From the NCBI RefSeq assembly GCF_013426975.1, contig NZ_JACCPY010000015.1, positions 1 to 64,000 on the forward strand: 64,000 nucleotides of DNA, written 5' to 3'. A model generated the notes under the pieces. It saw only the letters and a list, made by a program, of their open reading frames with translations, ran no database searches and was not told where the DNA came from. Positions 1 to 35,723 of the stretch are shown here, one piece after another (within the stretch, counting starts at the first letter, position 1; every line of letters begins with the position of its first letter). The position numbers and the translations under genes were made by a program. The DNA comes from Sphaerotilus sulfidivorans. Its GTDB lineage: Bacteria; Pseudomonadota; Gammaproteobacteria; Burkholderiales; Burkholderiaceae_C.

Positions 1-1505
<1,505 letters not shown>

Positions 1506-1527
1506 CGTCGGGGGGCCTTGCTTGGAT

Positions 1528-1572
1528 TCATGAAACGCCGGCGGGCCGCGGCTGCGCCAGATCATGAAACGC
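1528..1572 (+). repeat. Direct repeat TCATGAAACGC x2, candidate enhancer (UAS) for the sigma54 activator
   Basis: The 11-bp word TCATGAAACGC occurs at 1528-1538 and again at 1562-1572, a 34-bp period (just over three helical turns). The flanking bases are also alike (both are followed by GC-rich CCGG/CGGCC runs). The repeats lie in the divergent regulator/oxygenase gap, 72-116 bp upstream of the -24/-12 promoter at 1644, where enhancer sites of sigma54 activators usually sit. The sequence is not the XylR/DmpR consensus that I know, so the role as binding site is inference from position and repetition. Confidence 0.45.
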
Positions 1573-1643
1573 GGCCGGCGCCGCGGCCATCCGCACTGCT
1601 CCTCATGTCCGGAAATCGACAGCGGCGGCCCGGCTCGCCCCGC

Positions 1644-1659
1644 TGGCCCGCGGCTTGCA
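1644..1659 (+). promoter_or_regulatory. Sigma54 (-24/-12) promoter for the Rieske oxygenase pair
   Basis: TGGCCCGCGGCTTGCA matches the sigma54 consensus TGGCACG-N4-TTGCW at all conserved positions except one (C for A at position 5). The GG and GC dinucleotides have the required spacing, and a TTGCA -12 element is intact. It lies 49 bp before the reductase ATG at 1708 and downstream of the divergent DmpR-type activator, which makes the assignment strong. Confidence 0.8.
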
Positions 1660-1707
1660 GAAGAACGGACACACCGGAACACCGGGACCCCTGACGGAGA
1701 CAAGCCC

Positions 1708-2742
1708 ATGCCCCTCGATCCAGCGCAGACGCTGACGCTGCGCGTCAGCCGGCGCGAGCCGCTCTGCGACGGCATCGTCGCCTTCGAGCTGCGCGCGACC
1801 GACGACCGGCCGCTGCCCGCCTTCGACGCCGGCGCGCACATCGACCTGCACCTGCCACCGGCCCGGCCGGGCGAGGCGCCACGCCGGCGCAGCTACTCGC
1901 TGTGCAACCCGCCGGACGAGCGCGACCGCTACCTGATCGCGGTGCAGCACGAACACGCCGGCCGCGGCGGCTCGGCCTGGCTGCACGCGCAGCTGCAGCC
2001 GGGCGACCGCATCGACGCCAGCGCGCCGCGCAACCTCTTCGCGCTGCAGCCCGCGCCCCACACCCTGCTGCTGGCCGGCGGCATCGGACTGACACCGCTG
2101 CTGGCGATGGCCGAGACGCTGTGGGCGCAGGACCGCAGCTTCACGCTGCAGGTGCGGGTGCGCAGCCGCGCCCGGCTGCCCTTCGCGCGCCGGCTGCAGG
2201 AAGCGCCCTGGGCGCAGGCGGTGCAGGTGCTGGCCGACGACGAGGCACAGGCCGACACGGAGACGCTCGACCGGCTGATCGCCGCGCAGCCGGCCGGCAC
2301 CCGGATCTGGACCTGCGGCCCGGCCGGCTTCATGGCGGCGGTGCGCGCGGCCGCGACACGCGCCGGCTGGAGCGCCGACCGGGTCGTCACCGAGCATTTC
2401 GCTGCACCGGCACCGGTGCCGGCGCTGGAGCCGCGCGACCGGATCGCGCCCGGCGGCTTCGAGATCGACTGGGCGCCGAGCGGCCAGCGCCTGGCGGTGG
2501 CCCCTCACCAGAGCGTCGCACGGGTGCTGCAGGCCGCCGGCATCGCGGTGGCGCTGAGCTGCGAGCAGGGCATCTGCGGCCAGTGCTGCGTGCAGCACCT
2601 CGACGGCCCGGCCGATCACCGCGACCTGGTCTACGGCGCGCACGAGCACCAGGTCGAGCGCCGCTTCACGCCCTGCTGCTCACGCGCGCCCGCCGCCAGC
2701 CGGCTGGTACTGGCGCCGCTCGGCTGGACCCCGGCCACCTGA
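1708..2742 (+). CDS. Rieske oxygenase reductase, VanB/phthalate dioxygenase reductase family
   Basis: This 344-residue protein is a class IA-type reductase that passes electrons from NAD(P)H through FMN and a 2Fe-2S centre to a Rieske oxygenase. The flavin-binding motif RRSYSLCN is in the first quarter, GGIGLTPLL marks the nucleotide-binding start, and a C-terminal plant-type ferredoxin domain has C285-x4-C290-x2-C293 and a fourth Cys near 323. The start at 1708 (MPLDPAQTLT) is preceded by an ACGGAGA ribosome site; the frame is open further upstream, but that part covers the sigma54 promoter. The next gene is its oxygenase partner, 54 bp downstream. VanB and other O-demethylase reductases share this order of domains; the exact substrate is not decided by sequence. 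Confidence 0.88.
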   Translation: MPLDPAQTLTLRVSRREPLCDGIVAFELRATDDRPLPAFDAGAHIDLHLPPARPGEAPRRRSYSLCNPPDERDRYLIAVQHEHAGRGGSAWLHAQLQPGDRIDASAPRNLFALQPAPHTLLLAGGIGLTPLLAMAETLWAQDRSFTLQVRVRSRARLPFARRLQEAPWAQAVQVLADDEAQADTETLDRLIAAQPAGTRIWTCGPAGFMAAVRAAATRAGWSADRVVTEHFAAPAPVPALEPRDRIAPGGFEIDWAPSGQRLAVAPHQSVARVLQAAGIAVALSCEQGICGQCCVQHLDGPADHRDLVYGAHEHQVERRFTPCCSRAPAASRLVLAPLGWTPAT

Positions 2743-2796
2743 ATTTTCTCACCCCGATGTCCAGGAAGACATCACCCATCACGAAGGAGACAGACG

Positions 2797-3918
2797 ATGA
2801 CGACCCCCACCGATGCCGGCACCGCCACGGCGCGCATCCTGCTGCACCCCTCGGGCAGCCCGGTCGGCAAGCCGGACACGCCTTATCTGCTGAACTGCTG
2901 GTATGCGGCGGCGCTGTCGCGCGAGATTCCGGCTGAAGGCCTGCTCTCGCGTCAGCTGCTCGACACCGGCGTGCTGCTCTACCGCCGCGCCGACGGCACG
3001 CCGGTGGCGCTGCACGACCGCTGCCCGCACCGCTTCGTGCCGCTGTCGATGGGCCGACGCGAGGGCGACGAGGTGGTCTGCCGCTACCACGCGCTGCGCT
3101 TCGACTGCAGCGGCGCCTGCACCCACAACCCGCACGGCCATGGCCGCATCCCGGCCGCGGCCCGGGTGCGCAGCTTCCCGCTGCTCGAGCGCTGGGGCTT
3201 CGTGTGGATCTGGATGGGCGACGCGCCGGCCGATCCGGCGAAGCTGCCGGACTTCAGCCCGCTCGACGACGGACCGGCCAGCGGCATCGGCCACACCAGC
3301 ATGTCGATGAAGGCGAACTACGAGCTGATCATCGACAACGTCATGGACCTCAGCCATGTCGACCATGTGCACGGCGAGATCATCTCCACCCGCGGCCAGC
3401 TTACGCCGCAGATCCCGGCGGTGAAGGAGGAGAACGGCAGCGTCAGCGTGCGCTGGGAATGGCAGCAGACGCCGCCGATCCTGATCCTGGCGAACTTCCT
3501 GCCGGAGCCGGCCGCCGCGGCGCGCCACTTCGTCACCGTGACCTGGCATGCGCCGGCGACCATCCAGCTCAGCATCGGTGCCACCCAGGACGCCGACGCT
3601 CCGCTCGACCTGGCCCACACCCAGGGCCAGTACGACCTGCACACCTGCACCCCGGCCAGCGCCACCGAGACGCACTACTTCTTCGCCACCCGGCGCAACC
3701 ATCTGGTCGACGACGAGGCCTACAACCAGATGAAGATCGAGGCGATGCACGGCGCCTTCGTCGGCGAGGACGGCCCGATCATCGAGGCCGCCCAGCGCGA
3801 GATGAACACCCGCGACTTCTTCGCGCTCGACCCGGTGCTGATCACCAGCGATGTCGCGCCGGTGCGGGTGCGCCGGCTGCTGGCGCGCCTGATCGAGCAG
3901 GAGGGGCGCCACGCCTGA
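2797..3918 (+). CDS. Rieske non-heme iron oxygenase, VanA-like (aromatic O-demethylase type)
   Basis: 373 residues. The Rieske 2Fe-2S ligands are C76-P-H78 and C95-x2-H98; the mononuclear iron site is N181-x2-D184-x2-H187-x4-H192 (DNVMDLSHVDHVHG). This is the single-subunit alpha-only architecture of vanillate O-demethylase, toluenesulfonate methyl monooxygenase and related enzymes. A strong AAGGAGA site precedes the ATG. It pairs with the VanB-like reductase just upstream and shares its sigma54 promoter, in front of the phenol hydroxylase operon. Context suggests a methoxylated phenol (guaiacol- or vanillate-like) as substrate, with formaldehyde as by-product; frmRAB lie 7 kb downstream. An aromatic hydroxylase acting on another phenol is the main alternative. 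Confidence 0.87.
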   Translation: MTTPTDAGTATARILLHPSGSPVGKPDTPYLLNCWYAAALSREIPAEGLLSRQLLDTGVLLYRRADGTPVALHDRCPHRFVPLSMGRREGDEVVCRYHALRFDCSGACTHNPHGHGRIPAAARVRSFPLLERWGFVWIWMGDAPADPAKLPDFSPLDDGPASGIGHTSMSMKANYELIIDNVMDLSHVDHVHGEIISTRGQLTPQIPAVKEENGSVSVRWEWQQTPPILILANFLPEPAAAARHFVTVTWHAPATIQLSIGATQDADAPLDLAHTQGQYDLHTCTPASATETHYFFATRRNHLVDDEAYNQMKIEAMHGAFVGEDGPIIEAAQREMNTRDFFALDPVLITSDVAPVRVRRLLARLIEQEGRHA

Positions 3919-4126
3919 CGGCGGCGCTCGCGCATCGCCGGGAGCAGGCCGCACGGCCGCGCAGGAATCCACAGCCGCCGCCCCCGGAACTGGCGGATTC
4001 CAGACACCCCGCCCTCGCTGCCGTGCCGCACACCGACGCCAGGGCGCCCACGCGCGGCCGCCACAGGCCGCCTGACTCGGGATCTACCCTGATCTCTGCC
4101 CGATTGGCGGCCTTCTCGCCACGTTC

Positions 4127-4142
4127 TGGCACGGCCTTCGCA
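4127..4142 (+). promoter_or_regulatory. Sigma54 (-24/-12) promoter of the phenol hydroxylase operon
   Basis: TGGCACGGCCTTCGCA has a perfect TGGCACG -24 half and a -12 half TCGCA with one mismatch to TTGCW. It lies 92 bp before dmpK in an otherwise gene-free gap (3919-4233). About 130 bp upstream, an inverted pair GGAATCC (3964-3970) and GGATTCC (3995-4001) might be an activator site; the TCATGAAACGC word of the other promoter is not present here. Confidence 0.82.
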
Positions 4143-4233
4143 CAGGAAGGCCTTGCCGGGCGCGCTGCATCAGCTTCGACAGCCCCCCCGCCCGGCGTCC
4201 GAGACGACACGACCGGAACCCTGGAGACCCCCG

Positions 4234-4443
4234 ATGCCTGACCCGATCGCCCCCGACCTGACCCGCTGGGTGCGGGTGATTGAGCGCCGACCCGACGGCT
4301 TCGTCGAGTTCGCGTTCTCGATCGGCGACCCGGCGCTGGCCGTCGAGCTGATCCTGCCCGAACCGGCCTTCACCGCGTTCTGCGCCGAGCAGCGCGTCCG
4401 GACCTGGAACCTGAACGACCACCGCGAGGAGACACGCCCATGA
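4234..4443 (+). CDS. dmpK: Phenol hydroxylase assembly/accessory subunit (P0)
   Basis: A 69-residue protein (MPDPIAPDLTRWVRVIERRP at the start) matching the small DmpK/PhK subunits that open phenol hydroxylase operons and help assemble the iron centre of the oxygenase; it is not part of the catalytic cycle. The ATG at 4234 follows a CTGGAGA ribosome site; a longer frame upstream (from 4153) would begin at about the transcription start and is unlikely. Its stop overlaps the start of dmpL (ATGA), indicating translational coupling. It is the first gene after the sigma54 promoter. Confidence 0.85.
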   Translation: MPDPIAPDLTRWVRVIERRPDGFVEFAFSIGDPALAVELILPEPAFTAFCAEQRVRTWNLNDHREETRP

Positions 4444-5453
4444 CCGTCGAGATCCGGGTGCAGAGCGTCAAGCCGCTGCGCCACACCTTCGGCCACATCG
4501 CCCGCCGCTTCGGCGACAAGCCGGCCAGCCGCTACCAGGAGGGCACCTACGACCTCCAGTCGGAGGTCAACCACCACTACAAGCCGCTCTGGGATCCGGA
4601 GCGCGAGATCTACGACACCCGCCGCACCGCCATCGTGATGCGCGACTGGTACGCGCTGAAGGATCCGCGCCAGCACTACTACGGCAGCTGGACCATCGCA
4701 CGCGCACGCCAGCAGGAATCGGCCGAGCGCCAGATCGAGCTGGTGCGCGAGCACGACTGGCTGCGCCGGCTCGGCGACGAGGCGCGCCAGGGCGTGATCC
4801 TGGGGCTGCTGCCGCTGCGCCATGTCGAGTGGGGCGCCAACACCAGCCTCGGGCTGGTCGCCGCCTACGGCTACGGCACCGCGCTGACCCAGGCCGCGGC
4901 CATGGGCATGATGGACCGGCTCGGGCTGGCGCAGCATCTCTCGCGCATCGGCCTGCTGCTCGACGGCCAGACCGGCGCCAGCCTGAAGGCCGCGCGCACC
5001 GCCTGGCTGGAGGACGCGGCCTGGCAGGACCTGCGCCGCGAGGTCGAGAACCTGTTCGTGCGCCGCGACCCGATCGAGGTGCTGGTGGCGCAGTCGCTGG
5101 TGCAGGACGCGCTGGTCGACGCGCTGGTGCTGCGCCGCTTCGAGCCGGCCTGGAGCGGCGCGGGCGGCGACGCCGCGGTGATGGCGATGCTGCTGGACTT
5201 CCCGCTGCGCTGGCACGAGGAATCGGCGCGCTGGGTCGACGCGGTCGTCAAGGTGATGGCCGCCGAGAGCGAGTCCAACCGCGCCCTGCTGCGCGGCTGG
5301 GCCGACGCCTGGCGCCGCGCCTTCGCCGCCGCGCTGCGCCCGCTGGCGCGCCGGGTGCTGGGCGAGGCGGCCGGAGATGCGGCACTGCGCCAGGCCGAAG
5401 ACGCCCTGCAGACCCGGCTGGTCCGCCTGGGCTTGGCGCCGGGCGCCCGCTGA
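4440..5453 (+). CDS. dmpL: Phenol hydroxylase oxygenase beta subunit (P1)
   Basis: 337 residues, the usual length for DmpL/PhL/TomA1. It belongs to the ferritin-like fold of bacterial multicomponent monooxygenases but, like other beta subunits, has no full diiron ligand set. Regions such as YDTRRTAIVMRDWYALKDPR and GANTSLGLVAAYGYGTALTQ are typical of the family. It forms the hydroxylase core with DmpN and DmpO. Its start overlaps the dmpK stop; dmpM follows after 19 bp. Confidence 0.92.
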   Translation: MTVEIRVQSVKPLRHTFGHIARRFGDKPASRYQEGTYDLQSEVNHHYKPLWDPEREIYDTRRTAIVMRDWYALKDPRQHYYGSWTIARARQQESAERQIELVREHDWLRRLGDEARQGVILGLLPLRHVEWGANTSLGLVAAYGYGTALTQAAAMGMMDRLGLAQHLSRIGLLLDGQTGASLKAARTAWLEDAAWQDLRREVENLFVRRDPIEVLVAQSLVQDALVDALVLRRFEPAWSGAGGDAAVMAMLLDFPLRWHEESARWVDAVVKVMAAESESNRALLRGWADAWRRAFAAALRPLARRVLGEAAGDAALRQAEDALQTRLVRLGLAPGAR

Positions 5454-5472
5454 GCCGTTTCGAGGAGCCCTG

Positions 5473-5790
5473 ATGGACACGCTCGCCCACCCCACCACCC
5501 CCGCACCCGACACCCCCCGCGCCCCGGTCTTCATCGCGCTGCAGGCCAACCACGACACGCTGCCGATCGTCGAGGCGATCCGCGCCGACAACCCGCACGC
5601 CGAGGTGCTCGAGTACCCCGGTATGGTCAAGATCAACGCGCCCGGCGTGCTGGTGATCCGGCGCGAGTCGATCGAGGAACAGATCGGCCGCGACTACGAC
5701 CTGCGCGAGATGCAGCTCAACCTGATTTCCCTCTCCGGCGAGGTCGACGAGACCGAGGACCGCTTCACGCTCGAATGGAAGAACGCATGA
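5473..5790 (+). CDS. dmpM: Phenol hydroxylase regulatory (coupling) protein P2
   Basis: 105 residues, a cofactor-free effector protein of the MmoB/DmpM family that docks on the hydroxylase and couples electron transfer to substrate oxidation. Family features include FIALQANHDTLPIVEAIRAD and KINAPGVLVIRRESIEE. The ATG at 5473 follows a GAGGAGC ribosome site within six to seven bases. The N-terminal 17 residues are rich in Pro and Thr and look like a flexible tail. Its stop codon overlaps the start of dmpN. Confidence 0.92.
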   Translation: MDTLAHPTTPAPDTPRAPVFIALQANHDTLPIVEAIRADNPHAEVLEYPGMVKINAPGVLVIRRESIEEQIGRDYDLREMQLNLISLSGEVDETEDRFTLEWKNA

Positions 5791-7385
5791 CCGCCACCGT
5801 CGCCCCCACCGCCCAGGCCACCCCGGCCGCCGCCCCCACCCGCAAGCTCGGCCTGAAGGAAAGCCACGCGCTGCTGACCCAGGACCTGGGCTGGACGCCG
5901 AGCTACCAGCCGCCCGAGGCGGTCTACCCGCTGACCGCCTTCGAGGGCATCCGCATCCACGACTGGAGCGGCTGGGAAGACCCGTTCCGGCTGACGATGG
6001 ACGCCTACTGGAAATACCAGGGCGAGAAGGAGCGCAAGCTCTACGCCATCATCGACGCCTTCCAGCAGAACAACGGCCAGTTCAACGTCAGCGACGCGCG
6101 CTACATCCAGGCGCTCAAGCTCTTCGTCAACGGCGTCATCGGGCTGGAATACACCGCGCACCGCGGCTTCGCGATGATCGGGCGCGAGCTGCCGGGCACC
6201 GGCGCGCGCATCGCCGCGCAGATGCAGTCGATCGACGAGCTGCGCCATGCGCAGACCCAGATCCATGCGCTGTCGCACTACAACCGCTTCTTCACCGGGA
6301 TGGCGGAGTTCCCGCACCAGTTCGACCGCACCTGGTACCTGTCGATCCCGAAGTCCTTCTTCGAGGACGCGATCAGCGCCGGGCCGTTCGAGTTCATCGT
6401 CGCGATCAGCTTCTCCTTCGAGTACGTGCTGACCAATCTGGTGTTCATGCCGTGGATGTCGGGCGCGGCCTACAACGGCGACCTCTCGACGGTGAGCTTC
6501 GGCTTCAGCGCGCAGAGCGACGAGGCGCGCCACATGACGCTGGGCATCGAGGTGATCAAGTTCCTGCTCGAGCAGGATCCGGCCAACGTGCCGATCGTGC
6601 AGGGCTGGATCGACAAGTGGTTCTGGCGCGGCTACCGGCTGCTGACGCTGGTGGCGGCGATGATGGACTACATGCTCCCGAAGCGCGTGATGAGCTGGCA
6701 CGAGGCCTGGGAGATCTACTTCGAGCAGAACGGCGGCGCGCTCTTCAAGGACCTGGCGCGCTACGGCATCCGCATGCCGGTGCACTGGGAGGTCACCGTC
6801 GAGGAGAAGACGCACGCCAGCCACCAGCTCTGGAGCACCTTCTACCAGTACCGCCACGCGGCGGGCTTCCCGGTGTGGCTGCCTTCGGCCGAAGAGATGG
6901 ACTGGCTGTCGGCCAAGTACCCGGACAGCTTCGACCGCCTCTACCGGCCGCGCTACGAGCACTGGGCGCGCATGGCCGCCGAGGGCCGGCCCTTCGTCAA
7001 CGGCACGCTGCCGCAGCTCTGCCAGGTCTGCCAGTGGCCGATGCTGTTCACCGAGCCGGGCGACCCGACGCAGATCTGCCACCGCGAGGAGAAGTACCTC
7101 GGCGAGACCTTCCACTGCTGCTCCGACGGCTGCCGCGACATCTTCCGCCACGAGCCGGAAAAGTATGTGCATGCGCATCTGCCGGTGCACCAGATCTACC
7201 AGGGCACGCAGTTCCATCCGGACAGCGACCCCGGCGCACCCGACTTCAACCCGCATGTGGCGGCACTGCGCTACATGGGCATCGAGCCGGGCGTGGACGG
7301 CGGCGACTTCGACACCCACGCCGACGCGCGCCACTGGACCGAATGGACCGGCCGCCCGGCCAGCCTGCACGGACCGGCCGCCTGA
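5787..7385 (+). CDS. dmpN: Phenol hydroxylase oxygenase alpha subunit (P3), diiron catalytic subunit
   Basis: 532 residues. Carboxylate-bridged diiron ligands are recognisable: E121 (LEYTAHRG), E151/H154 (DELRH) and E246/H249 (DEARH), the two E-x2-H pairs of the family. The C-terminal region carries a Cys-rich element (CQVCQWPM ... CHREEKYLGETFHCCSDGC) corresponding to the YHS/zinc segment of DmpN. The enzyme hydroxylates phenol to catechol in a complex with DmpL and DmpO, taking electrons from DmpP. The start at 5787 (MTATVAP) overlaps the dmpM stop as ATGA; a start four codons upstream (5775) is also open but less likely. Confidence 0.95.
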   Translation: MTATVAPTAQATPAAAPTRKLGLKESHALLTQDLGWTPSYQPPEAVYPLTAFEGIRIHDWSGWEDPFRLTMDAYWKYQGEKERKLYAIIDAFQQNNGQFNVSDARYIQALKLFVNGVIGLEYTAHRGFAMIGRELPGTGARIAAQMQSIDELRHAQTQIHALSHYNRFFTGMAEFPHQFDRTWYLSIPKSFFEDAISAGPFEFIVAISFSFEYVLTNLVFMPWMSGAAYNGDLSTVSFGFSAQSDEARHMTLGIEVIKFLLEQDPANVPIVQGWIDKWFWRGYRLLTLVAAMMDYMLPKRVMSWHEAWEIYFEQNGGALFKDLARYGIRMPVHWEVTVEEKTHASHQLWSTFYQYRHAAGFPVWLPSAEEMDWLSAKYPDSFDRLYRPRYEHWARMAAEGRPFVNGTLPQLCQVCQWPMLFTEPGDPTQICHREEKYLGETFHCCSDGCRDIFRHEPEKYVHAHLPVHQIYQGTQFHPDSDPGAPDFNPHVAALRYMGIEPGVDGGDFDTHADARHWTEWTGRPASLHGPAA

Positions 7386-7432
7386 GCGCCGCCCCGAACG
7401 ACACGCCACCGACACGCCAGAAGGAGACACGA

Positions 7433-7795
7433 ATGAGCGTCAAGGCGATCCGCCCCGACTACCACGGCGACATGAAGGACAGCGCCGACCACTACCGCGG
7501 CCAGCAGCTGCTCTACATCGGCTGGGACCGGCATCTGATGTTCGCCGCGCCGCTGTGCATTCCGGTGCCGCCCGAGATGCCCTTCGGCGCGCTGCAGGAG
7601 GCGGTGCTGCCGGGCCTCTACGGCCAGCACCCCGACTTCGCGCGCATCGACTGGGGCCGGGTGGAATGGCTGCGCGGCGGCCAGCCCTTCATGCCGGACC
7701 CGGCGGCCAGCCTGGCGGCCAACGGCATCGGCCACAAGACCTCGCTGCGCCTGCGCACGCCGCAGCTGCCGGGCCTGGCCGGCGCGGCCTTCTGA
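7433..7795 (+). CDS. dmpO: Phenol hydroxylase oxygenase gamma subunit (P4)
   Basis: 120 residues (MSVKAIRPDYHGDMKDSADH at the start), the expected size and sequence style of DmpO/PhO, the third subunit of the (alpha-beta-gamma)2 hydroxylase. An AAGGAGA ribosome site sits seven bases before the ATG. It follows dmpN by 47 bp and precedes the reductase gene by 21 bp within the same operon. Confidence 0.9.
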   Translation: MSVKAIRPDYHGDMKDSADHYRGQQLLYIGWDRHLMFAAPLCIPVPPEMPFGALQEAVLPGLYGQHPDFARIDWGRVEWLRGGQPFMPDPAASLAANGIGHKTSLRLRTPQLPGLAGAAF

Positions 7796-7816
7796 GCACG
7801 CGCAGGAGCCTGATCC

Positions 7817-8884
7817 ATGAGCTTCGAGCTGCGCATCGAACCGACCGGCCAGACCCTCGAGGTCGCGCCGGACCAGACCGTGCTGGACGCCTGCCTGCGC
7901 GCCGGCCTCTGGCTGCCCCACGCCTGCTGCCACGGGCTGTGCGCCACCTGCAAGGTGCGCGTGCTCGACGGCGAGGTCGACCACGGCGAGGCCTCACCCT
8001 TCGCGCTGATGGACTTCGAGCGCGAGGAGGGCCGGACGCTGGCCTGCTGCGCGACGCTGCAGTCCGACGCGGTGATCGAGGCCGATCTGGAGGTCGACGC
8101 CGACGCGCGCGTCATCCCGGTCGAGGACTTCCGCGCCACCGTGCTGGCCCGCCAGGCGCTGACGCCCACCATCCTGGGCCTGACGCTGCAGCTGGACCGG
8201 CCGATCGACTTCCAGGCCGGCCAGTACATCAACCTGGCGATCCCGGAGCTGGCGTCGCGTCGCGCCTTCTCGATCGCGTCGCCGCCGTCGCTCTCGCGCG
8301 ACGGGGCGCGCATCGCGCTGCAGGTGCGCCGCGTGCCCGGCGGCGCGGGCACCGGCTGGCTGCACGACACGCTGCGCCCGGGCATGGCGCTCGATCTCGC
8401 CGGCCCCTACGGCCGCTTCTTCGTGCGCACCTCGGCGGCACGGCCGATGCTCTTCATCGCCGGCGGCTCCGGCCTGGCCAGCCCGCGCAGCATGATCCTG
8501 GATCTGCTCGAACAGGGCGACGGCCCGCCGATCACGCTGGTGGTCGGCCAGCGCTGCCGCGAGGAGCTCTACGAGCACGAGGACTGGATCGCGCGCGCCG
8601 AGGCCGATCCGGCGCGGCTGCGCTACCTGCCGGTGCTCTCGCACGAGCCCGAGGGCAGCGCCTGGCGCGGCCTGCGCGGCTGGGCGCACGAGGCCGCGCG
8701 CGACCTGTTCGACGGCGACTTCCGCGGCCTGAAGGCCTATCTCTGCGGCCCGCCGGCGATGGTGGAGGCGGCGGTGTCGACGCTGATGCAGGGCCGGCTG
8801 TTCGAGCGCGACATCCACACCGAGCAGTTCCTGTCGGCCGCCGATGCCCAGCGGGTGCGCAGCCCGCTGTTCCGCTCGGTCTGA
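7817..8884 (+). CDS. dmpP: Phenol hydroxylase NADH reductase (P5)
   Basis: 355 residues. An N-terminal plant-type 2Fe-2S domain has C37-x4-C42-x2-C45 and C77; it is followed by an FAD domain with the RAFSIASPP motif and an NAD domain with FIAGGSGLASPRSMI and a CGPPAMVEAAV region near the end. The protein passes electrons from NADH via FAD and the iron-sulfur centre to the diiron hydroxylase. It is the last core gene of the dmpKLMNOP set; the set is complete and shows no break in frame. Confidence 0.94.
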   Translation: MSFELRIEPTGQTLEVAPDQTVLDACLRAGLWLPHACCHGLCATCKVRVLDGEVDHGEASPFALMDFEREEGRTLACCATLQSDAVIEADLEVDADARVIPVEDFRATVLARQALTPTILGLTLQLDRPIDFQAGQYINLAIPELASRRAFSIASPPSLSRDGARIALQVRRVPGGAGTGWLHDTLRPGMALDLAGPYGRFFVRTSAARPMLFIAGGSGLASPRSMILDLLEQGDGPPITLVVGQRCREELYEHEDWIARAEADPARLRYLPVLSHEPEGSAWRGLRGWAHEAARDLFDGDFRGLKAYLCGPPAMVEAAVSTLMQGRLFERDIHTEQFLSAADAQRVRSPLFRSV

Positions 8885-8945
8885 GCGGCATACCCGCCGG
8901 GCATCGCGGCGGACCTTTTCGGTATTGGACAGCCGGGAACGGATC

Positions 8946-8961
8946 TGGCTATCTTCCCGCA
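8946..8961 (+). promoter_or_regulatory. Degenerate -24/-12-like element before the ferredoxin gene
   Basis: TGGCTATCTTCCCGCA keeps the GG and GC dinucleotides at sigma54 spacing but matches the consensus poorly between them. It lies 44 bp before the ferredoxin ATG. Weak support; the ferredoxin may simply be read through from dmpP. Confidence 0.25.
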
Positions 8962-8968
8962 AGAAAAA

Positions 8969-8988
8969 CAGACAGACAGACAGACAGA
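8969..8988 (+). repeat. Tetranucleotide repeat (CAGA)5 in a 5' leader
   Basis: Five perfect tandem CAGA units follow an AAGAAAAA run and end 16 bp before the ferredoxin ATG, directly abutting its AGGAGA ribosome site. Such repeats change copy number by replication slippage. Here a change would alter promoter-to-ribosome-site spacing rather than the reading frame. Confidence 0.8.
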
Positions 8989-9004
8989 GACAGGAGACAA
9001 GCGC

Positions 9005-9403
9005 ATGGCGATGAGCACGCCCGCGACCGCGCGCTTCGCGGTACGCATCGAAGACACCGGCGAGACCTACCGCTGCGCCGACACCCGCTCGCTGCTGGAA
9101 GGCATGGAGGCCCTGGGCCGCAAGGGCATTCCGGTGGGCTGCCGCAATGGCGGCTGCGGGGTCTGCAAGGTGCAGATCCGCGACGGCCGCTATGCCTCGC
9201 GCGTCATGAGCCGCGACCATGTCAGCGAGGAGGACGAGCGCTGCGGCCGGGTGCTGGCCTGCCGGGTCCGGCCCTGCAGCGATCTGAGCCTCAGCGTGAT
9301 CGGGCTGATGCGCAAGAGCGTCTGCCGCAGCGATGCCGGCTCGGGCCGAGCGGCAGAATCGCCTCATGAACACCCTGCCGCCCGACCCGACTGCCCCCGC
9401 TGA
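9005..9403 (+). CDS. dmpQ: Plant-type 2Fe-2S ferredoxin, XylT/DmpQ family
   Basis: 132 residues with ligands C46-x4-C51-x2-C54 and C86. XylT/DmpQ ferredoxins re-reduce the oxidised iron of catechol 2,3-dioxygenase during meta-cleavage and are normally followed by that dioxygenase gene. No such dioxygenase is present in this window; dsdA follows instead. The family is usually about 110 residues, and the last 20 or so residues here (after [12 protein letters not shown]) are non-conserved and overlap the dsdA start by 38 bp, so the original stop may have been lost. Start supported by AGGAGA six to ten bases upstream. Confidence 0.85.
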
Positions 9404-10754
9404 TCCGACCGATGCGACCGATGCGACCGATGCAGTCGATGCGATCGACCCGCTCGATCTGATCGACCGTCATCCCGAACTTCGGACCCTCCAGGCCCGC
9501 CAGCCGCTGCTCTGGGCCAACCCGCGCCAGGCGCCGGCCGCCCGGGCGCTGGCCGATGTCGGCCTGGGGCCGCAGGATGTGGCTGCCGCCAGCGCGCGCT
9601 TCAGGCGCTTCGCGCCGCTGATCGCCGAGCTGTTTCCGGCCACCGCCGCGGCCGGCGGCCTGATCGAGTCGCCGCTGCGCGAGGTGCCGCGGCTGCAGGC
9701 GGCGATGGCGCGCCGGCTCGGGCGTGCAGCCCTGCCCGGCCGGCTGTGGATGAAGCTCGACAGCCACCTGCCGGTGTCGGGCTCGATCAAGGCGCGCGGC
9801 GGCATTCACGAGGTGCTGCAGCATGCCGAGGCCCTGGCGCTGGCGGCCGGGCTGCTGCGGCTGGACGACGACTACCGCCGACTGCTGGCGCCCGACGCAC
9901 GCGCGCTGCTCGGCCGCCACCGGCTGGCGGTGGGCTCGACCGGCAACCTCGGGCTGTCGATCGGGCTGATGGGCGCGGCGCTGGGCCTGCAGGTCACGGT
10001 GCACATGTCGGCCGATGCGCGCCAGTGGAAGAAGGACCGGCTGCGCGCCGGCGGCGTCACCGTGGTCGAGCACCGCGCAGACTACGGCGCCGCGGTCGCC
10101 GAGGGCCGCCGCCAGGCCGAGGCCGATCCGCAGTGCCATTTCATCGACGACGAGAACTCGCGCCATCTCTTCCTGGGCTACGCGGTCGCGGCCGAGCGGC
10201 TGCTGCCGCAGCTGACCGCTGCCGGCATCCCGGTGGACGCCGCACATCCGCTGCATGTGCATCTGCCCTGCGGCGTCGGCGGCGGGCCCGGCGGCGTGGC
10301 CTTCGGGCTGAAGCTGCTGCTGGGCGACGCGGTGCACTGCTGGTTCGCCGAGCCGGTGGCCGCGCCCTGCATGCTGCTCGGGCTGATCACCGACCGGCAC
10401 GAGGCGGTCTCGGTGCACGACATCGGCCTGGACAACCGCACCGCCGCCGACGGCCTGGCGGTGGCGCGCGCCTCCGGCTTCGTCGGCCGGGCCTTGCGAC
10501 GGCTGGTCGCGGGCGGCTTCACCGTGCCCGATGACGAGCTGTTCGCGCTCCTGGCCCTGGCCGAGCGCGAGGAAGGGCTGCGGCTGGAGCCTTCCGCGCT
10601 GGCCGGCGTGCCCGGCATCGCCTGGCTGGCCGGGCATCCGCCGCCCGCGCAGGCCGCGGGCGCGACCCACATCGCCTGGGCCACCGGCGGCAGCATGGTG
10701 CCGGACGAGGAAATGGCAGGCTATCTGGCGCGCGGACGGGCACACGGACGGTGA
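9366..10754 (+). CDS. dsdA: D-serine ammonia-lyase (D-serine dehydratase)
   Basis: 462 residues. A PLP enzyme converting D-serine to pyruvate and ammonia. The Schiff-base lysine is K142 in GSIKARGG; the phosphate-binding loop CGVGGGPGG and the C-terminal WATGGSMVP motif are present. The N-terminus contains a low-complexity run of Thr-Asp-Ala units coded by 9-bp near-repeats (9408-9446). The start at 9366 (MNTLPPDPT) overlaps the ferredoxin end; an in-frame ATG at 9333 is possible but would lengthen the overlap. No dsdC regulator or DsdX transporter is adjacent. Confidence 0.93.
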
Positions 10755-10775
10755 CAGCCGGGCCGCCGGCCCATA

Positions 10776-10790
10776 TACTGCCCGGGAGTA
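10776..10790 (+). promoter_or_regulatory. Candidate FrmR operator
   Basis: TACTGCCCGGGAGTA is an imperfect dyad with TACT/AGTA ends and a G/C-rich core, the form of CsoR/RcnR/FrmR-family operators. It lies just 12 bp upstream of the frmR start, together with an AT-containing CATATACT that could be part of a -10 region. Autoregulation by FrmR is inference. Confidence 0.5.
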
Positions 10791-10802
10791 CAGGAGAGCC
10801 CC

Positions 10803-11066
10803 ATGCCCAACTCGCCGGAAGACCGTCGCAAGGCCGTGGCCCGGGTGCGCCGCATCCGTGGCCAGGCCGATGCGCTCGAGCGCGCGCTCGAGGCCGGCGA
10901 GGACTGCGCGCCGATCCTGCAGCAGCTCGCGGCGATGCGCGGCGCGGTCAACGGCCTGATGGCCGAGGTGATGGCCGCGCACATCCGCGACGAGCTGGCC
11001 GCGCCCGACGACCCCGAGGCGCTGGCGCGCGACCTCACCGCGCTGGTGCGCTCCTACCTGCGCTGA
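10803..11066 (+). CDS. frmR: Formaldehyde-responsive repressor, CsoR/RcnR family
   Basis: 87 residues, all-helical CsoR-fold repressor. It has Pro2, Cys35 and His60, the residues that in characterised FrmR proteins allow formaldehyde to crosslink the Pro2 amine to Cys35; the metal-sensing relatives differ at these positions. The gene directly precedes frmA and frmB on the same strand, the classic frmRAB order. Ribosome site AGGAGAG upstream of the ATG. Confidence 0.9.
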
Positions 11067-12215
<1,149 letters not shown>

Positions 12216-12232
12216 GCCCGGGGGAGCAGGCC

Positions 12233-13084
12233 ATGGAACGCATCGAGCAGCACGCCAGCTTCGGCGGCCGCCAGGAAGTCTGGACCCACCCGTCGGAGGC
12301 GCTGGGCGGGCCGACGCGCTTCGGCGTCTACCTGCCGCCGGCGGCGCTGGCCGGCGAGCGCTGCCCGGTGCTGTACTGGCTCTCGGGCCTGACCTGCACC
12401 GAGCAGAACTTCATCACCAAGGCCGGCATTCAGCAGCACGCCGCCGCGCACGGCCTGATCGTGGTCGCGCCCGACACCAGCCCGCGCGGGACCGAGGTGC
12501 CCGACGATCCGGCCTACGACCTGGGCCAGGGTGCCGGCTTCTACCTGGATGCCACGCAGGCGCCATGGTCGACGCACTTCCGCATGGAAACCCATGTGGT
12601 TCATGAGCTGCCGGCCTGGATCGAGGCGCATTTCCCGGCCAGCGACCGGCGCGCGATCAGCGGCCACTCGATGGGCGGCCACGGTGCGCTGAGCCTGGCG
12701 CTGCGCCATCCGGGCCGCTACGCCAGCGTCTCGGCCTTCGCGCCGATCGTCGCGCCCAGCCAGGTGCCGTGGGGGCAGAAGGCCTTCGCCGCCTACCTGG
12801 GCGACGACCCCGCCGCCTGGGCCGCGCACGACACGGTGGCGCTGATCGCGCAGGCCGCCGAACGCCTGCCGCTGCTGGTCGACCAGGGCGAGGCCGACGA
12901 CTTCCTGAGCGGCCAGCTGCGCCCGGAGCTGCTGCAGGCCGCCTGCGCCGACGCCGGCCACCCGCTGACGCTGCGCCTCCATCCCGGCCACGACCACAGC
13001 TACTACTTCATCGCCAGCTTCATCGGCGAGCATGTGGCCTGGCATGCGCAGGCGCTGGGCGCGGCTTCCAGGCAGCGAGTTTGA
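12233..13084 (+). CDS. frmB: S-formylglutathione hydrolase
   Basis: 283 residues, alpha/beta-hydrolase of the esterase D family. The nucleophile elbow GHSMGGHGAL and the oxyanion region LSGLTCTEQNF are conserved, and the C-terminal HPGHDHSYYF supplies the histidine. It splits S-formylglutathione into formate and glutathione, completing formaldehyde oxidation. The ATG is 17 bp after the frmA stop, following a GGGGGAGCAGG ribosome site. Confidence 0.94.
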   Translation: MERIEQHASFGGRQEVWTHPSEALGGPTRFGVYLPPAALAGERCPVLYWLSGLTCTEQNFITKAGIQQHAAAHGLIVVAPDTSPRGTEVPDDPAYDLGQGAGFYLDATQAPWSTHFRMETHVVHELPAWIEAHFPASDRRAISGHSMGGHGALSLALRHPGRYASVSAFAPIVAPSQVPWGQKAFAAYLGDDPAAWAAHDTVALIAQAAERLPLLVDQGEADDFLSGQLRPELLQAACADAGHPLTLRLHPGHDHSYYFIASFIGEHVAWHAQALGAASRQRV

Positions 13085-13088
13085 ACGT

Positions 13089-14591
13089 TCAAACCGGTCG
13101 ACCCTGACGCCCGACCAGCCAGGCCGGCGCGTCCTGCAGGCACACCGGGCGCAGGAAACGTGCGAGGGCCGCATCACCCACTGAGGTGCTCTCGGGGCGG
13201 GTGCTGCTCGGCCACGGGCCGCCGTGCTGCTGCGCGGCGGTCACCGCCACGCCGGTGGGCACGCCCGCGAACAGCACCCGCCCGGCGATGGCCATCGCGC
13301 CGCGCACCAGGGCGCGCGAGCGGTCGCCGTCCTGCTCGACGCCCCACAGCGTCACCGTCAGGCTGCCGCCCACCGCCTGCAGCACCTGCAGTGCCTGACT
13401 CAAGGACGCCGCGCGCACGATCAGGCTGCTCGGGCCGAAGACTTCTTCCCGCAGCGCCGCACGGGCGATGAACTCGGTGGCGCTGACCTGCGCCAGCACC
13501 GGGCGCGGCGGCTGGCCGGCCTCGGCGGTCTCGCGCAGCAGCAGCTCGGCGCCGGCCTCTTCCCAGTGCGCGACGCCGGCCTCGAAGGCACCACGCATCG
13601 AGCGGGTCAGCATCGCGTGCGGCTGCTGGCCGCCCAGCGCCTCGCGCAGCTGGGCGACGAAGCGGTCGTTCACCGTCTTGGCGGCCACGCCCGGCTGCAG
13701 CTCGTCGATCAGCACGATCAGGCCGGGATTGGTGCAGAACTGGCCGCAGCCCAGCGCGATCGAGCCCGCCAGCGTGGTCGCCAGCGCCGCGCCGTCGGTC
13801 GCGAGCCGGTCCGGCAGCGCGATCACCGGGTTGACCGAGCCCAGCTCGCCGAAGAAGGGAATCGGGCGCGGCCGGCTGGCGGCCTCGGCGGCCAGCGCCG
13901 CGCCGCCCTGGGTCGAGCCGGTGAAGGCGCCGGCGGCGATCGCCGGATGGCGGATCAGCCGCACGCCGATGTCGCGCCCGCCGCCCTGCACCAGCGCGAT
14001 CAGGCCGGACGGCAGGCCCAGCTCGGCCAGCGCGTCCTGCACCAGGCCGAAGACGCGGTTGGAGAGCTGCAGGTGGCCGGTGTGCGCCTTGACGACCACC
14101 GGACAGCCGGCGGCCAGCGCCGAGGCGGTGTCGCCGCCCAGCACCGAGAAGGCGAAGGGGAAGTTCGAGGCCGAGAACATCGCCACCGGGCCCAGCGGCA
14201 CCGACCAGCGCTGCATCGCCGGATGCCCGGCCGGCGGCGCACCGGCCACCGCCGGATCGTCGATGAAGGCGAAGGGCTCGCCCCGTTCCGCGATGTCCGC
14301 GAAGCGGCGCAGCTGGAAGGCGGTGCGGTCGAGCTCGCCGTTCAGGCGCACCGGGCCCAGCGCGGTCTCCTGGTCGGCCAGCGCCACCAGGGCCTCGCGG
14401 TCGGCCTCCAGCGCCGAGGCCAGCGCACGCAGCAGCGCGGCGCGCTCGGCGCCGGTGGCGGCCTGCCACAGCGGGAAGGCCGCCGCGGCCGCCTCGCAGG
14501 CGGCGTCGAGCTGGGCGGGCGAGGTCGCCGGCAGCTCGGCCAGCAGCGCGCCGGTGCGGGCGCAGAAGGAGGAAAGCAGGGTCGTCATCAT
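13089..14591 (-). CDS. Alpha-ketoglutaric semialdehyde dehydrogenase (NADP-type ALDH)
   Basis: 500 residues, aldehyde dehydrogenase superfamily. The catalytic Cys lies in GCGQFCTNPG and the general-base Glu in FFGELGSVNP; the ASNFPFAFSVLGGDTASALAAG stretch (given here in part) is typical of the 2,5-dioxovalerate dehydrogenases that end sugar-acid pathways. It would oxidise ketoglutarate semialdehyde, the product of KdgD, to 2-oxoglutarate. It is the last gene of the gudD operon and converges on frmB with a 4-bp gap. A second Met at 14588 is better spaced from the AAGGA ribosome site and may be the real start. Confidence 0.88.
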   Translation of the reverse strand: MMTTLLSSFCARTGALLAELPATSPAQLDAACEAAAAAFPLWQAATGAERAALLRALASALEADREALVALADQETALGPVRLNGELDRTAFQLRRFADIAERGEPFAFIDDPAVAGAPPAGHPAMQRWSVPLGPVAMFSASNFPFAFSVLGGDTASALAAGCPVVVKAHTGHLQLSNRVFGLVQDALAELGLPSGLIALVQGGGRDIGVRLIRHPAIAAGAFTGSTQGGAALAAEAASRPRPIPFFGELGSVNPVIALPDRLATDGAALATTLAGSIALGCGQFCTNPGLIVLIDELQPGVAAKTVNDRFVAQLREALGGQQPHAMLTRSMRGAFEAGVAHWEEAGAELLLRETAEAGQPPRPVLAQVSATEFIARAALREEVFGPSSLIVRAASLSQALQVLQAVGGSLTVTLWGVEQDGDRSRALVRGAMAIAGRVLFAGVPTGVAVTAAQQHGGPWPSSTRPESTSVGDAALARFLRPVCLQDAPAWLVGRQGRPV

Positions 14592-30660: not shown

Positions 30661-31617
30661 TCAGGCGTTCAGCTGCTGCTCGAGCTGGTGCAGCACCTGG
30701 TAGCACGGCAGCACCTGGGCCAGGCTGCTGTTGGGCTGGCGGCCTTCGCGGATGGCGGCGAAGAACTCGCGGTCCTGCAGCTCGATGCCGTTCATCGACA
30801 CGTCGACCTGGGACACGTCGATCTTCTCTTCCTTGCCGTTGACCAGATCGTCATAGCGGGCAATGAAGGTGCCGGTGTCGCCGATGTAGCGGAAGAAGGT
30901 GCCGAGCGGGCCGTCGTTGTTGAACGACAGGCTCAGCGTGCAGATCGCGCCGTTGGCGGCCTTGAGCTGGATGCTCATGTCCATCGCGATGCCCAGCGTC
31001 GGATGGATCGGGCCCTGGATGGCGTTGGCCTTGACGATCGGCGAGCCGCACTGGTAGGCGAACAGATCGACCGTGTGCGCGGCGTGGTGCCACAGCAGAT
31101 GGTCGGTCCACGAGCGCGGCTGGCCCAGCGCGTTCATGTTGGTGCGACGGAAGAAGTAGGTCTGCACATCCATCTGCTGGATGTTGAACTCGCCGGCCTC
31201 GATCTTCTTGTGCACCCACTGGTGGCTGGGGTTGAAGCGACGGGTGTGGCCGCACATCGCCACCAGGCCGCTCTTCTCGGCCAGCGCCACCGCTTCCTCG
31301 CCGTCGGCCAGCACGTCGCACAGCGGGATCTCGACCTGCACATGCTTGCCGGCCTTCAGGCAGGCCAGCGTCTGGCTGGCATGCATCTGGGTCGGGGTGC
31401 ACAGGATGACCGCATCGACCTCCGGCATCGACAGGCTGTCGGCCAGGTCGGTGGTGACGTGGCCAATGCCGTACTTGGCGGCGACCTCGCGGGTCTTCTC
31501 CAGGTCACGGCCGATCAGCGAGACGACCTCGACGCCGTCGATGTTGCGGATGCCGTCCAGGTGCTTGATGCCGAAGGCGCCGGCGCCGGCCAGCGCCACC
31601 TTGATGGTCTTGCTCAT
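30661..31617 (-). CDS. ligC: 4-carboxy-2-hydroxymuconate-6-semialdehyde dehydrogenase
   Basis: 318 residues, Gfo/Idh/MocA fold. The N-terminal dinucleotide-binding motif is GAGAFGIKHLDG; EIPLCDVLADGEEAVALAEK and MCGHTRRFNPSHQWVHKKI follow the family pattern, here LigC/PmdC. It oxidises the ring-cleavage product of protocatechuate 4,5-dioxygenase (hemiacetal form) to 2-pyrone-4,6-dicarboxylate. It is the last gene of the operon, just after ligB. Confidence 0.92.
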   Translation of the reverse strand: MSKTIKVALAGAGAFGIKHLDGIRNIDGVEVVSLIGRDLEKTREVAAKYGIGHVTTDLADSLSMPEVDAVILCTPTQMHASQTLACLKAGKHVQVEIPLCDVLADGEEAVALAEKSGLVAMCGHTRRFNPSHQWVHKKIEAGEFNIQQMDVQTYFFRRTNMNALGQPRSWTDHLLWHHAAHTVDLFAYQCGSPIVKANAIQGPIHPTLGIAMDMSIQLKAANGAICTLSLSFNNDGPLGTFFRYIGDTGTFIARYDDLVNGKEEKIDVSQVDVSMNGIELQDREFFAAIREGRQPNSSLAQVLPCYQVLHQLEQQLNA

Positions 31618-31656
31618 GAGGAAAAGTCCTGTGCTGTGGAGGGCGAGCCGCGCGGC

Positions 31657-33932
<2,276 letters not shown>

Positions 33933-33969
33933 GGGAATCAGTCCTTGGATTGATCTGCAGGCTTCGCGC

Positions 33970-34995
33970 TCAGTCCAGCGAGGCCTTGGCGCGCTGGATC
34001 ACGCCGGCCCACTTGGTCGATTCCGACTGGATGAAGCTGCCGAACTGCTCGCGTGTCGTCGGGAAGAGGTCATAGCCGAAGGTGGCATAGCGCTGGGCGA
34101 TCTCCGGATCGGCCAGCGCCTTCTCGAGGTCGCGCTGGATGCGATCGGCCACCGCCTTGGGCAGGCCCTTCGGCGTGGCGATGGTCGTCCAGCCCGAGAC
34201 CTCGTAGCCGGCCGGGCCGCCCGACTCGGCCACCGTCGGCACGTCCGGGAAGGCCGGGTGGCGCTTCAGGCCGGTGGTGCCGATGAACTTGATCTTGCCG
34301 GCGCGCTGCAACGGCCCGGCGGTGGCCATCGTGCCCAGCGCGAAGTTCAGCTCGCCGTTGGCCACGCCGGTGTAGAGCTGCGAGGTCTCCTTGTAGACCA
34401 CATGCTGCATCTCGGTGTTCGTCATCGCCTCCAGCAGCGCGGTGCCCAGATGCACCGGATTGCCGACCGACCAGGAGCCGTAGTTCAGCTTGCCGGGATT
34501 GGCACGGGCCTCGGCCAGGATGTCGCCGACATTGCGGTACTTGCTGTTCGCCGCGGTGGTCAGGAAGAAGTTGGCGCGGAACAGCGGCAGCACCGGCTCG
34601 AAGTCCTTCGGGTCGTAGGGCAGCTTCTTGAACAGGTGCGGATAGGCGACCAGATGCACATTGTCCAGATGCATCAGGTCATGGCCGTCCTTGGCCCCCT
34701 GGCGGAAGGCATCGATCGCGATGAAGCCGTTCGCACCGGGCCGGTTCTCGACGATGACCGGCTTGCCCCAGGTCTTCTGCAGCTTCTCGGCCAGCAGGCG
34801 CACCACGCCTTCCGGGCCGGAGCCGACCGGAAAGGGCGTGATGATGCGCACCGGCTTGGTCGGCCAGTCGGTGGCCGCGGCCGCCGAGGCGGCGGTCTGG
34901 GCCTGCGTCGGCAGCGCAAAGGCGGCAGCCACGCCAGCGGCGGCGGCCAGCTTCAGGAAGGCCTTGCGGCTCGGGCGGGTGAATCGGTCGGTCAT
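33970..34995 (-). CDS. Bug-type substrate-binding protein of the protocatechuate operon
   Basis: 341 residues. The N-terminus has a twin-arginine-free but Arg/Lys-rich start (MTDRFTRPSRKAFLKLAAAA) and a hydrophobic signal ending near PTQAQTA; the mature part shows PVRIITPFPVGSGPEGVVR and ENRPGANGFIAIDAF of the tripartite tricarboxylate family. Inserted between ligK and ligI, so an aromatic acid (protocatechuate or a precursor) is the probable ligand. No membrane partner genes nearby. Confidence 0.88.
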   Translation of the reverse strand: MTDRFTRPSRKAFLKLAAAAGVAAAFALPTQAQTAASAAAATDWPTKPVRIITPFPVGSGPEGVVRLLAEKLQKTWGKPVIVENRPGANGFIAIDAFRQGAKDGHDLMHLDNVHLVAYPHLFKKLPYDPKDFEPVLPLFRANFFLTTAANSKYRNVGDILAEARANPGKLNYGSWSVGNPVHLGTALLEAMTNTEMQHVVYKETSQLYTGVANGELNFALGTMATAGPLQRAGKIKFIGTTGLKRHPAFPDVPTVAESGGPAGYEVSGWTTIATPKGLPKAVADRIQRDLEKALADPEIAQRYATFGYDLFPTTREQFGSFIQSESTKWAGVIQRAKASLD

Positions 34996-35039
34996 CGTTG
35001 TCTCCTGGGAAAAGGCGGATCGCGCGTCGGGGCGCGATC

Positions 35040-35723
35040 TCAGTCGATGTAGCGCAGGCCGGCCTTGGCCAGCGGCTCGCGCATCTTGTACATGTCCAGC
35101 CCCAGCACGCCGCTGGCGAGCAGGTCGCGCTTCTCGCCCTCGAAGCTCTCGCGCCTGGCGGCGGCGGCGGCCACCTCGACCACGCGGGCGGCCGGCACGC
35201 AGCACACGCCGTCGTCGTCGGCGACGATCGCGTCGCCCGGGTTGACCATCATGCCGGCGCACACCACCGGAATGTTCACCGAGCCCAGCGTGGCCTTGAT
35301 CGTGCCCTTGGCGCTGATCGCCCGGGACCAGACCGGGAAGCCCATCTCCTTGAGCGTCTTCACGTCGCGCACGCCGGCGTCGATGATCAGGGCGCGCGCG
35401 CCGCGGGCCATGAAGCTGGTGGCGAGCAGGTCGCCGAAGTAGCCATCGGTGCACTCGGCGGTGACCGCGGCCACGACGATGTCGCCCGGCTGGATCTGCT
35501 CGGCAGCCACATGCATCATCCAGTTGTCGCCCGGGTGCAGCAGCACGGTGACCACGGTGCCCGAGACCTGGGTGCCGACCTGGATCGGGCGCATATAGGG
35601 CTTGAGCAGGCCGACGCGGCCCATCGCCTCGTGCACGGTGGCCGAGCCCAGGGCCGCCAGACGGTCGGTGGCCTCGCGGTCGGCACGAGTGATGTTGCGG
35701 TAGACGACGCCGAGTTCGTACAT
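35040..35723 (-). CDS. ligK: 4-carboxy-4-hydroxy-2-oxoadipate aldolase / oxaloacetate decarboxylase
   Basis: 227 residues, RraA-like fold (LigK/PmdF/ProA family). Metal- and substrate-binding stretches are [17 protein letters not shown] and [20 protein letters not shown]. It cleaves the last pathway intermediate to pyruvate and oxaloacetate. The start [10 protein letters not shown] at 35723 is chosen; the frame is open further upstream but has no family residues. First gene of the operon; the upstream region holds a word shared with another Bug gene (35806-35828). The two steps before it, 4-oxalomesaconate tautomerase and hydratase, are not encoded in the window. Confidence 0.92.

Follow-up and report, generated by a model that had tools for sequence, protein, structure and literature searches.

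The first 64,000 nucleotides of contig C37 from a 4.39-Mb draft genome of the filamentous bacterium Sphaerotilus sulfidivorans (bases 1–64000, hereafter the window) begin with a gene for a DmpR/XylR-family sigma54 activator, which is followed by genes for a reductase and a Rieske oxygenase, dmpKLMNOP for phenol hydroxylase, a ferredoxin gene, a gene annotated as D-serine ammonia-lyase and frmR-frmA-fghA. This arrangement raises the question of what the activator senses and which of its neighbors it controls. A preliminary description of the locus proposed a phenol sensor that switches on demethylation and hydroxylation together. Our analysis points to a different organization, to which we assign a probability of roughly two in three: positions 1–3918 would form a self-contained gdm module in which the activator, named GdmR here, senses a methoxyphenol and drives gdmBA, while a second regulator drives phenol hydroxylase and the frm genes clear formaldehyde. 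Guaiacol is one of the main lignin- and smoke-derived phenols. The enzyme itself is known, and the part of the locus worth testing is a regulator branch whose phenol anchor has been replaced.

The oxygenase and its reductase

Domain matches confirm that a reductase and a Rieske oxygenase lie between the regulator and the phenol hydroxylase operon, as the preliminary description had stated. The open reading frame (ORF) of gdmB (1708–2742, + strand) encodes a VanB-type flavin/[2Fe-2S] reductase, with a Fer2 match of 34.8 bits and with DmmA-like_N and FAD_binding_6 slightly under the Pfam cut-offs. That of gdmA (2797–3918, + strand) carries Rieske (67.9 bits) and VanA_C (185.5 bits) domains, and the stretch from there to dmpK yielded no ORF for a beta subunit, in agreement with the alpha-only oxygenase proposed earlier. 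The best solved relative of the oxygenase is 7QWT (520 bits; 221 of 353 aligned positions identical, 63%), which a table in PMC12445004 gives as GdmA, the guaiacol O-demethylase of Rhizorhabdus wittichii RW1; the next-best Protein Data Bank match is the dicamba demethylase DdmC, at 196 bits. GdmA demethylates guaiacol to catechol, according to PMC11837543, and PMC12997858 states that GdmAB from Cupriavidus necator N-1 enables Pseudomonas putida to grow on guaiacol. When plasmid pBB1 of that strain was searched, its best match to the window oxygenase was 61% identical and is presumably the characterized GdmA of C. necator N-1.

In a tree of 24 rows, the window enzyme falls on the side of 7QWT, which comprises 19 rows, apart from DdmC and the VanA-type paralogues (84/95 support, 82% of bootstrap trees), and it belongs to a sister group of 7QWT. 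All eight checked positions, the Rieske Cys/His ligands and the mononuclear-iron His/Asp motif, are kept in 24 of 24 rows; we take these residues to have the metal-binding roles implied by those names. A structure model of GdmA was too poor to use (predicted local distance difference test (pLDDT) score of 52.9) and was set aside. The oxygenase is thus an ordinary member of a known enzyme family, and the phylogeny and the 7QWT identities support the earlier prediction that the pair is an aromatic O-demethylase for guaiacol-like substrates. The GdmAB family of guaiacol O-demethylases is reportedly known from Bleem et al. 2022 (Chem Catal).

The Sphaerotilus pair resembles GdmAB, as covered by PMC11837543, PMC12997858, PMC13288931 and PMC12445004, in its identity to 7QWT, its conserved ligands, its VanB-type reductase and a catechol route downstream; it differs in its linkage to a distinct DmpR-family regulator and phenol hydroxylase, and its activity is predicted. 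With VanAB it shares the VanA_C and Rieske domains and the two-component organization, a kinship at the domain level, whereas the oxygenase groups with GdmA. Actinobacterial GcoAB and GuaR offer a functional parallel, guaiacol being converted to catechol under a dedicated guaiacol regulator (GuaR is a guaiacol-dependent activator, according to PMC9582017), but they comprise a P450 and an AraC-type regulator that are unrelated to GdmAB and GdmR.

The alternative that survives best accepts GdmA-type chemistry and assigns the enzyme another natural methoxyarene, such as creosol, syringol, a methoxycatechol made by phenol hydroxylase or veratrole, with guaiacol secondary. It draws on the 63% identity to the nearest named GdmA, on the sister-group position and on the neighboring phenol hydroxylase, which could make methoxycatechols. 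We consider it unlikely, given that the relatives studied for guaiacol belong to the same group at about 60% identity and that the loci feed catechol meta-cleavage, catechol being the direct product of guaiacol.

The genome of the window encodes a second VanA-type oxygenase (L002; G000, contig C3:768–1790), 30% identical to the first and accompanied by a VanB-type reductase; it was the only VanA-type paralogue found there. Elsewhere, additional gdmA copies, degenerate or frameshifted and matched only piecewise, lie beside intact-looking modules (L034, 7865–9309; L008, 11094–12342), and in genome G456 (L032) the regulator is flanked by two full gdmA copies.

A regulator branch linked to gdmBA

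The GdmR gene occupies positions 1–1505 on the − strand, with its C-terminus past the contig edge. The full-length protein of 588 residues was taken from an S. sulfidivorans plasmid and is identical to the window part where the two overlap. It has the architecture of the DmpR/XylR family, namely a V4R sensor with zinc ligands, an AAA+ domain and a C-terminal helix-turn-helix. A model of the sensor (pLDDT 73.5), of a quality sufficient to confirm the fold only, gave the PoxR, MopR and DmpR structures as best Foldseek matches.

In the pockets of MopR, PoxR and DmpR, a His–Trp dyad holds the phenol hydroxyl, as described in PMC10715001 and PMC7264223. The window regulator keeps only the Trp of this dyad: Trp134, Pro103, Tyr161, Ala162 and all four zinc ligands are retained, and the phenol-anchoring His106 (MopR numbering) is Arg, with His at position 114 and Trp at position 176. 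The combination of Arg106, Trp176 and His or Asn at 114 occurs in 15 of 55 distinct sensor-bearing rows, which represent 13 loci, all of them gdm loci; position 106 in the remaining homologue rows is His (39 rows) or, in XylR, Tyr. These 13 regulators form one clade with 100/100 support in a tree of 52 rows (the 55 minus three partial or duplicate entries, L042, L031 and L041). The branch thus shares with DmpR, MopR and PoxR the V4R fold, the AAA+ domain, the Fis-type helix, the zinc ligands, Trp134 and a sigma54 promoter with upstream repeats; what sets it apart, in 13 of 13 loci, is the exchange of His106 for Arg, Val114 for His or Asn and Tyr/Phe176 for Trp, together with Gly or Arg in place of Ser or Thr before the recognition-helix Arg, Ser or Thr being found in the other full-length rows aligned there.

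Linkage was counted at 17 GdmA loci with usable flanks. Left out were L012 and L035 (cut at the contig start and taken as one genome with L034), L013 (35%), L014 (partial, 50%), L031 (taken as one record with L008), L020–L028 (short versions of L029–L035) and H4 (Acinetobacter lwoffii). At 12 of the 17, gdmBA has an Arg106-type regulator no more than 3 kb away (L004, L005, L006, L007, L009, L011, L015, L029, L030, L032, L033 and L034). Across 299 genomes of the family, 7 contain GdmA and 63 have a regulator match at an E value of 1e-140; with up to four candidates scored per genome, matches of at least 63% identity occur in six genomes, all among the seven with GdmA. The seventh, G584 (L033), has an Arg106-type copy of 51.6% identity beside gdmB. 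Order-wide samples were too sparse for linkage: GdmA and the regulator were each found in 1 of 399 genomes, that of the window (up to four GdmA and three regulator candidates scored per genome).

Phenol hydroxylase is present in the flanking sequence fetched for 8 of the 17 loci (L004, L005, L008, L010, L015, L017, L029 and L030), a frequency at which the earlier remark that the grouping is not a standard one is not quite right; the regulator adjoins gdmBA with no phenol hydroxylase in the fetched flank at seven others (L006, L007, L009, L011, L032, L033 and L034). We considered whether the regulator occurs in genomes that lack phenol hydroxylase altogether and rejected this, as all seven genomes tested carry a DmpN of 63–86% identity elsewhere; an eighth record, plasmid pBB1, has only a toluene-monooxygenase-like match of 28%. 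Catechol 2,3-dioxygenase was found in seven of these eight records and not on pBB1. Five such distant phenol hydroxylases (63–81% identity) come from three genomes with coordinates from both searches, and each has a DmpR-family gene at a distance of about 2 kb. Because phenol hydroxylase is encoded elsewhere in module-bearing genomes, gdm resembles a module added to hosts that already convert phenol to catechol.

From its position and its rebuilt pocket, the linked regulator is apparently a dedicated activator of gdmBA, and its ligand is probably guaiacol. A broader proposal, for which we see about even chances, is that the Arg106/Trp176 clade represents an undescribed DmpR-type branch with a replaced phenol anchor, specific for guaiacol-type methoxyphenols and with its own DNA site, that is, a sigma54 guaiacol sensor moving with gdmBA between catechol-degrading hosts. 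In the open-access PMC literature, a scope outside which the founding paper (Bleem 2022) falls, we found no description of such a branch and met no dedicated guaiacol regulator other than the AraC-type GuaR. If the proposal holds, a DmpR-family branch tied to GdmAB would provide a sigma54 guaiacol biosensor and a ready regulator–enzyme–promoter module for lignin conversion, and it would reveal how specificity changes within this well-studied family of sensors.

The DmpR-type regulators of three sphingomonad loci (L010, L018 and L038) lack the first zinc Cys (MopR C155), its position being taken by Gly. Those of L010 and L018 adjoin GdmA genes, which suggests a separate recruitment.

Promoters, candidate activator sites and the second regulator

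We ranked sigma54 sites by a consensus score of our own, with weights chosen by us, and gauged significance with 500 order-1 Markov simulations of each upstream region. Upstream of gdmBA, a predicted −24/−12 promoter (TGGCCCGCGGCTTGCA, 1644–1659, + strand) scores 19.2, tied as best in the window with that of the phenol hydroxylase operon (TGGCACGGCCTTCGCA, 4127–4142, + strand; 19.2). Both had been noted in the preliminary description as good promoters, and among about 128,000 positions scored over the two strands they take the top two ranks; the score was reached by 0 of 500 simulations for the gdm region and by 1 of 500 for the phenol hydroxylase region. The −24 GG/−12 GC element upstream of gdmB is shared: all 11 divergent regulator–gdmB intergenic regions contain a site scoring 18.9–20.4 (0–2 of 500 simulations each), and sites of 20.4, 19.7 and 18.6 precede gdmB in L009, L010 and L018; no site of comparable quality was found upstream of gdmB in L008 (best 15.6), L016 (16.9) or L017 (14.5). 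All six phenol hydroxylase upstream regions score 17.7–19.2; two of these scores are weak, as 9 and 15 of 500 simulations reach them.

Two candidate activator sites lie in the gdm intergenic region, an imperfect palindrome (GATTCATGAAAC, 1525–1536, + strand) and a second site (AGATCATGAAAC, 1559–1570, + strand), with cores 34 bp apart. One or more instances of the pattern WTC[ACT][CT]GAA are present in 8 of 11 gdm regions; six of the 11 have two, which are 34 bp apart in five cases. None of seven phenol hydroxylase upstream regions contains the pattern, and the window has 26 instances on both strands. The 34-bp geometry agrees with the 29–42-nt spacing of XylR/DmpR sites given in PMC6449761. 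Classical DmpR half-sites (TGATC/GATCA) formed no consistent pair in the gdm or phenol hydroxylase regions. The assignment of the paired repeat as activator binding sites is suggestive only.

A second DmpR-family regulator, encoded just past the left edge of the window, keeps His106. In genome G430 (L076), where no GdmA match was found at an E value of 1e-90 (up to six candidates scored), a regulator 70% identical to it is encoded divergently from dmpKL, and all 16 bases of the window promoter at 4127 recur in the site that precedes dmpK. The phenol hydroxylase block from 4127 is therefore most likely a separate module, driven by this second regulator. In the phenol hydroxylase regions, no common upstream activating site that could serve the second regulator was found; the short words that they share are mostly the promoter itself or near-copies.

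These results bear on the proposal in which gdmBA and phenol hydroxylase are induced together by the adjacent activator, acting as a broad phenol sensor, and guaiacol degradation is accessory to a phenol regulon. It would account for the excellent sigma54 promoters of both blocks, the retained V4R/AAA+ architecture, Trp134, Pro103 and zinc ligands, the fall of the modeled sensor on PoxR, MopR and DmpR and the phenol hydroxylase beside gdm in 8 of 17 loci. Against it stand the invariant Arg106 and the accompanying changes at 114 and 176, the distinct recognition helix, the seven loci where the regulator remains with gdmBA without flanking phenol hydroxylase, the absence of the repeat from all seven phenol hydroxylase regions and the separate His106 regulator. 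We regard joint induction as improbable and do not retain that part of the preliminary description. Equally doubtful is an anionic ligand (a vanillate-like carboxylate, a ring-cleavage product or a phenolate) whose charge would pair with Arg106, an idea suited to the polar change that the invariant Arg and the His or Asn at 114 may bring to the anchoring side of the pocket and opposed by the uncharged phenol on which the linked enzyme group acts and by the retention of Trp134 and most aromatic pocket residues.

In the self-contained gdm module that we favor, GdmR, with its rebuilt aromatic pocket, would sense a methoxyphenol, most likely guaiacol, bind the site pair in the 202-bp intergenic region and activate sigma54 RNA polymerase at 1644. 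GdmA would receive electrons from NAD(P)H through GdmB and convert guaiacol to catechol and formaldehyde by oxidative demethylation; FrmA and FghA would clear the formaldehyde, and the neighboring meta-cleavage operon would consume the catechol. The phenol hydroxylase block would be separate, most likely under the His-keeping second regulator. GdmA membership, conserved linkage, pocket substitutions, promoters and neighboring pathway genes are read from sequence; the ligand, the DNA sites, the regulator driving phenol hydroxylase and all activities are what we infer.

Several observations weigh against this model. Support for the GdmA group is moderate (84/95), with outgroups on long branches. 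In L008 the Arg106-type regulator lies about 7 kb from gdmB, which is not preceded by a good sigma54 site; two Novosphingobium GdmA loci (L010 and L018) adjoin a His106-type regulator; the stretch fetched from C. necator N-1 (L016) has neither type; and at the Acinetobacter locus (L017) a LysR gene is nearer, DmpR-family genes are missing within 3 kb and a MobR gene lies about 10 kb away. GdmA without GdmR at L010, L018, L016 and L017 means that GdmA does not require GdmR. The 299-genome scan, with up to four candidates per genome, missed the Arg106-type copy of G584. The repeat pair is spaced by 55 in L006, three of the 11 gdm regions (L032, L033 and L034) lack the repeat, and the pattern was derived from these same sequences, of which L004, L005 and L015 are near-copies. 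The Sphaerotilus phenol hydroxylase operon closely follows gdmA, so that read-through or cross-activation is possible, and the partner of Arg106 could be a carboxylate or phenolate instead of guaiacol.

Formaldehyde and catechol disposal and the wider neighborhood

Genes for glutathione-dependent formaldehyde detoxification, frmR-frmA-fghA (10803–13084, + strand), lie 6.9 kb downstream of the oxygenase. FrmA and FghA score above their NCBIfam cut-offs (718 and 396 bits, respectively); FrmR, at 107 bits, falls short of its cut-off of 133. In Sphaerotilus (the window and L005) these genes lie past the phenol hydroxylase operon, and in C. necator N-1 (L016) frmA and fghA are immediately 3′ of gdmBA. 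Their placement independently fits O-demethylation. The C. necator gdm genes also lie downstream of a toluene-monooxygenase-type operon and a TodX/FadL-type porin gene, not far from a gene for a hybrid histidine kinase that contains two kinase modules (L016, 220–10747).

The proteins of the region are identical to those of S. sulfidivorans plasmid pSna507_unt10 (L015), which supplies the left side: a LysR gene, catechol 2,3-dioxygenase and the meta-cleavage operon, a transporter, the second DmpR-family regulator (9210–10982, + strand) and then the window's regulator (10943–12709, − strand). The genome of the window has the same meta-cleavage operon and second regulator at the end of contig C3. 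This operon, encoded just outside the window, would take catechol from demethylation.

Within the window, dmpKLMNOP and a dmpQ-type ferredoxin gene span 4234–9403 (+ strand). An Rfam search of positions 1–14000 gave no match. Farther downstream, positions 30661–35723 encode protocatechuate 4,5-cleavage enzymes, of which LigB (31657–32541) and LigK (35040–35723) are assigned by NCBIfam; the other lig genes of this stretch are putative.

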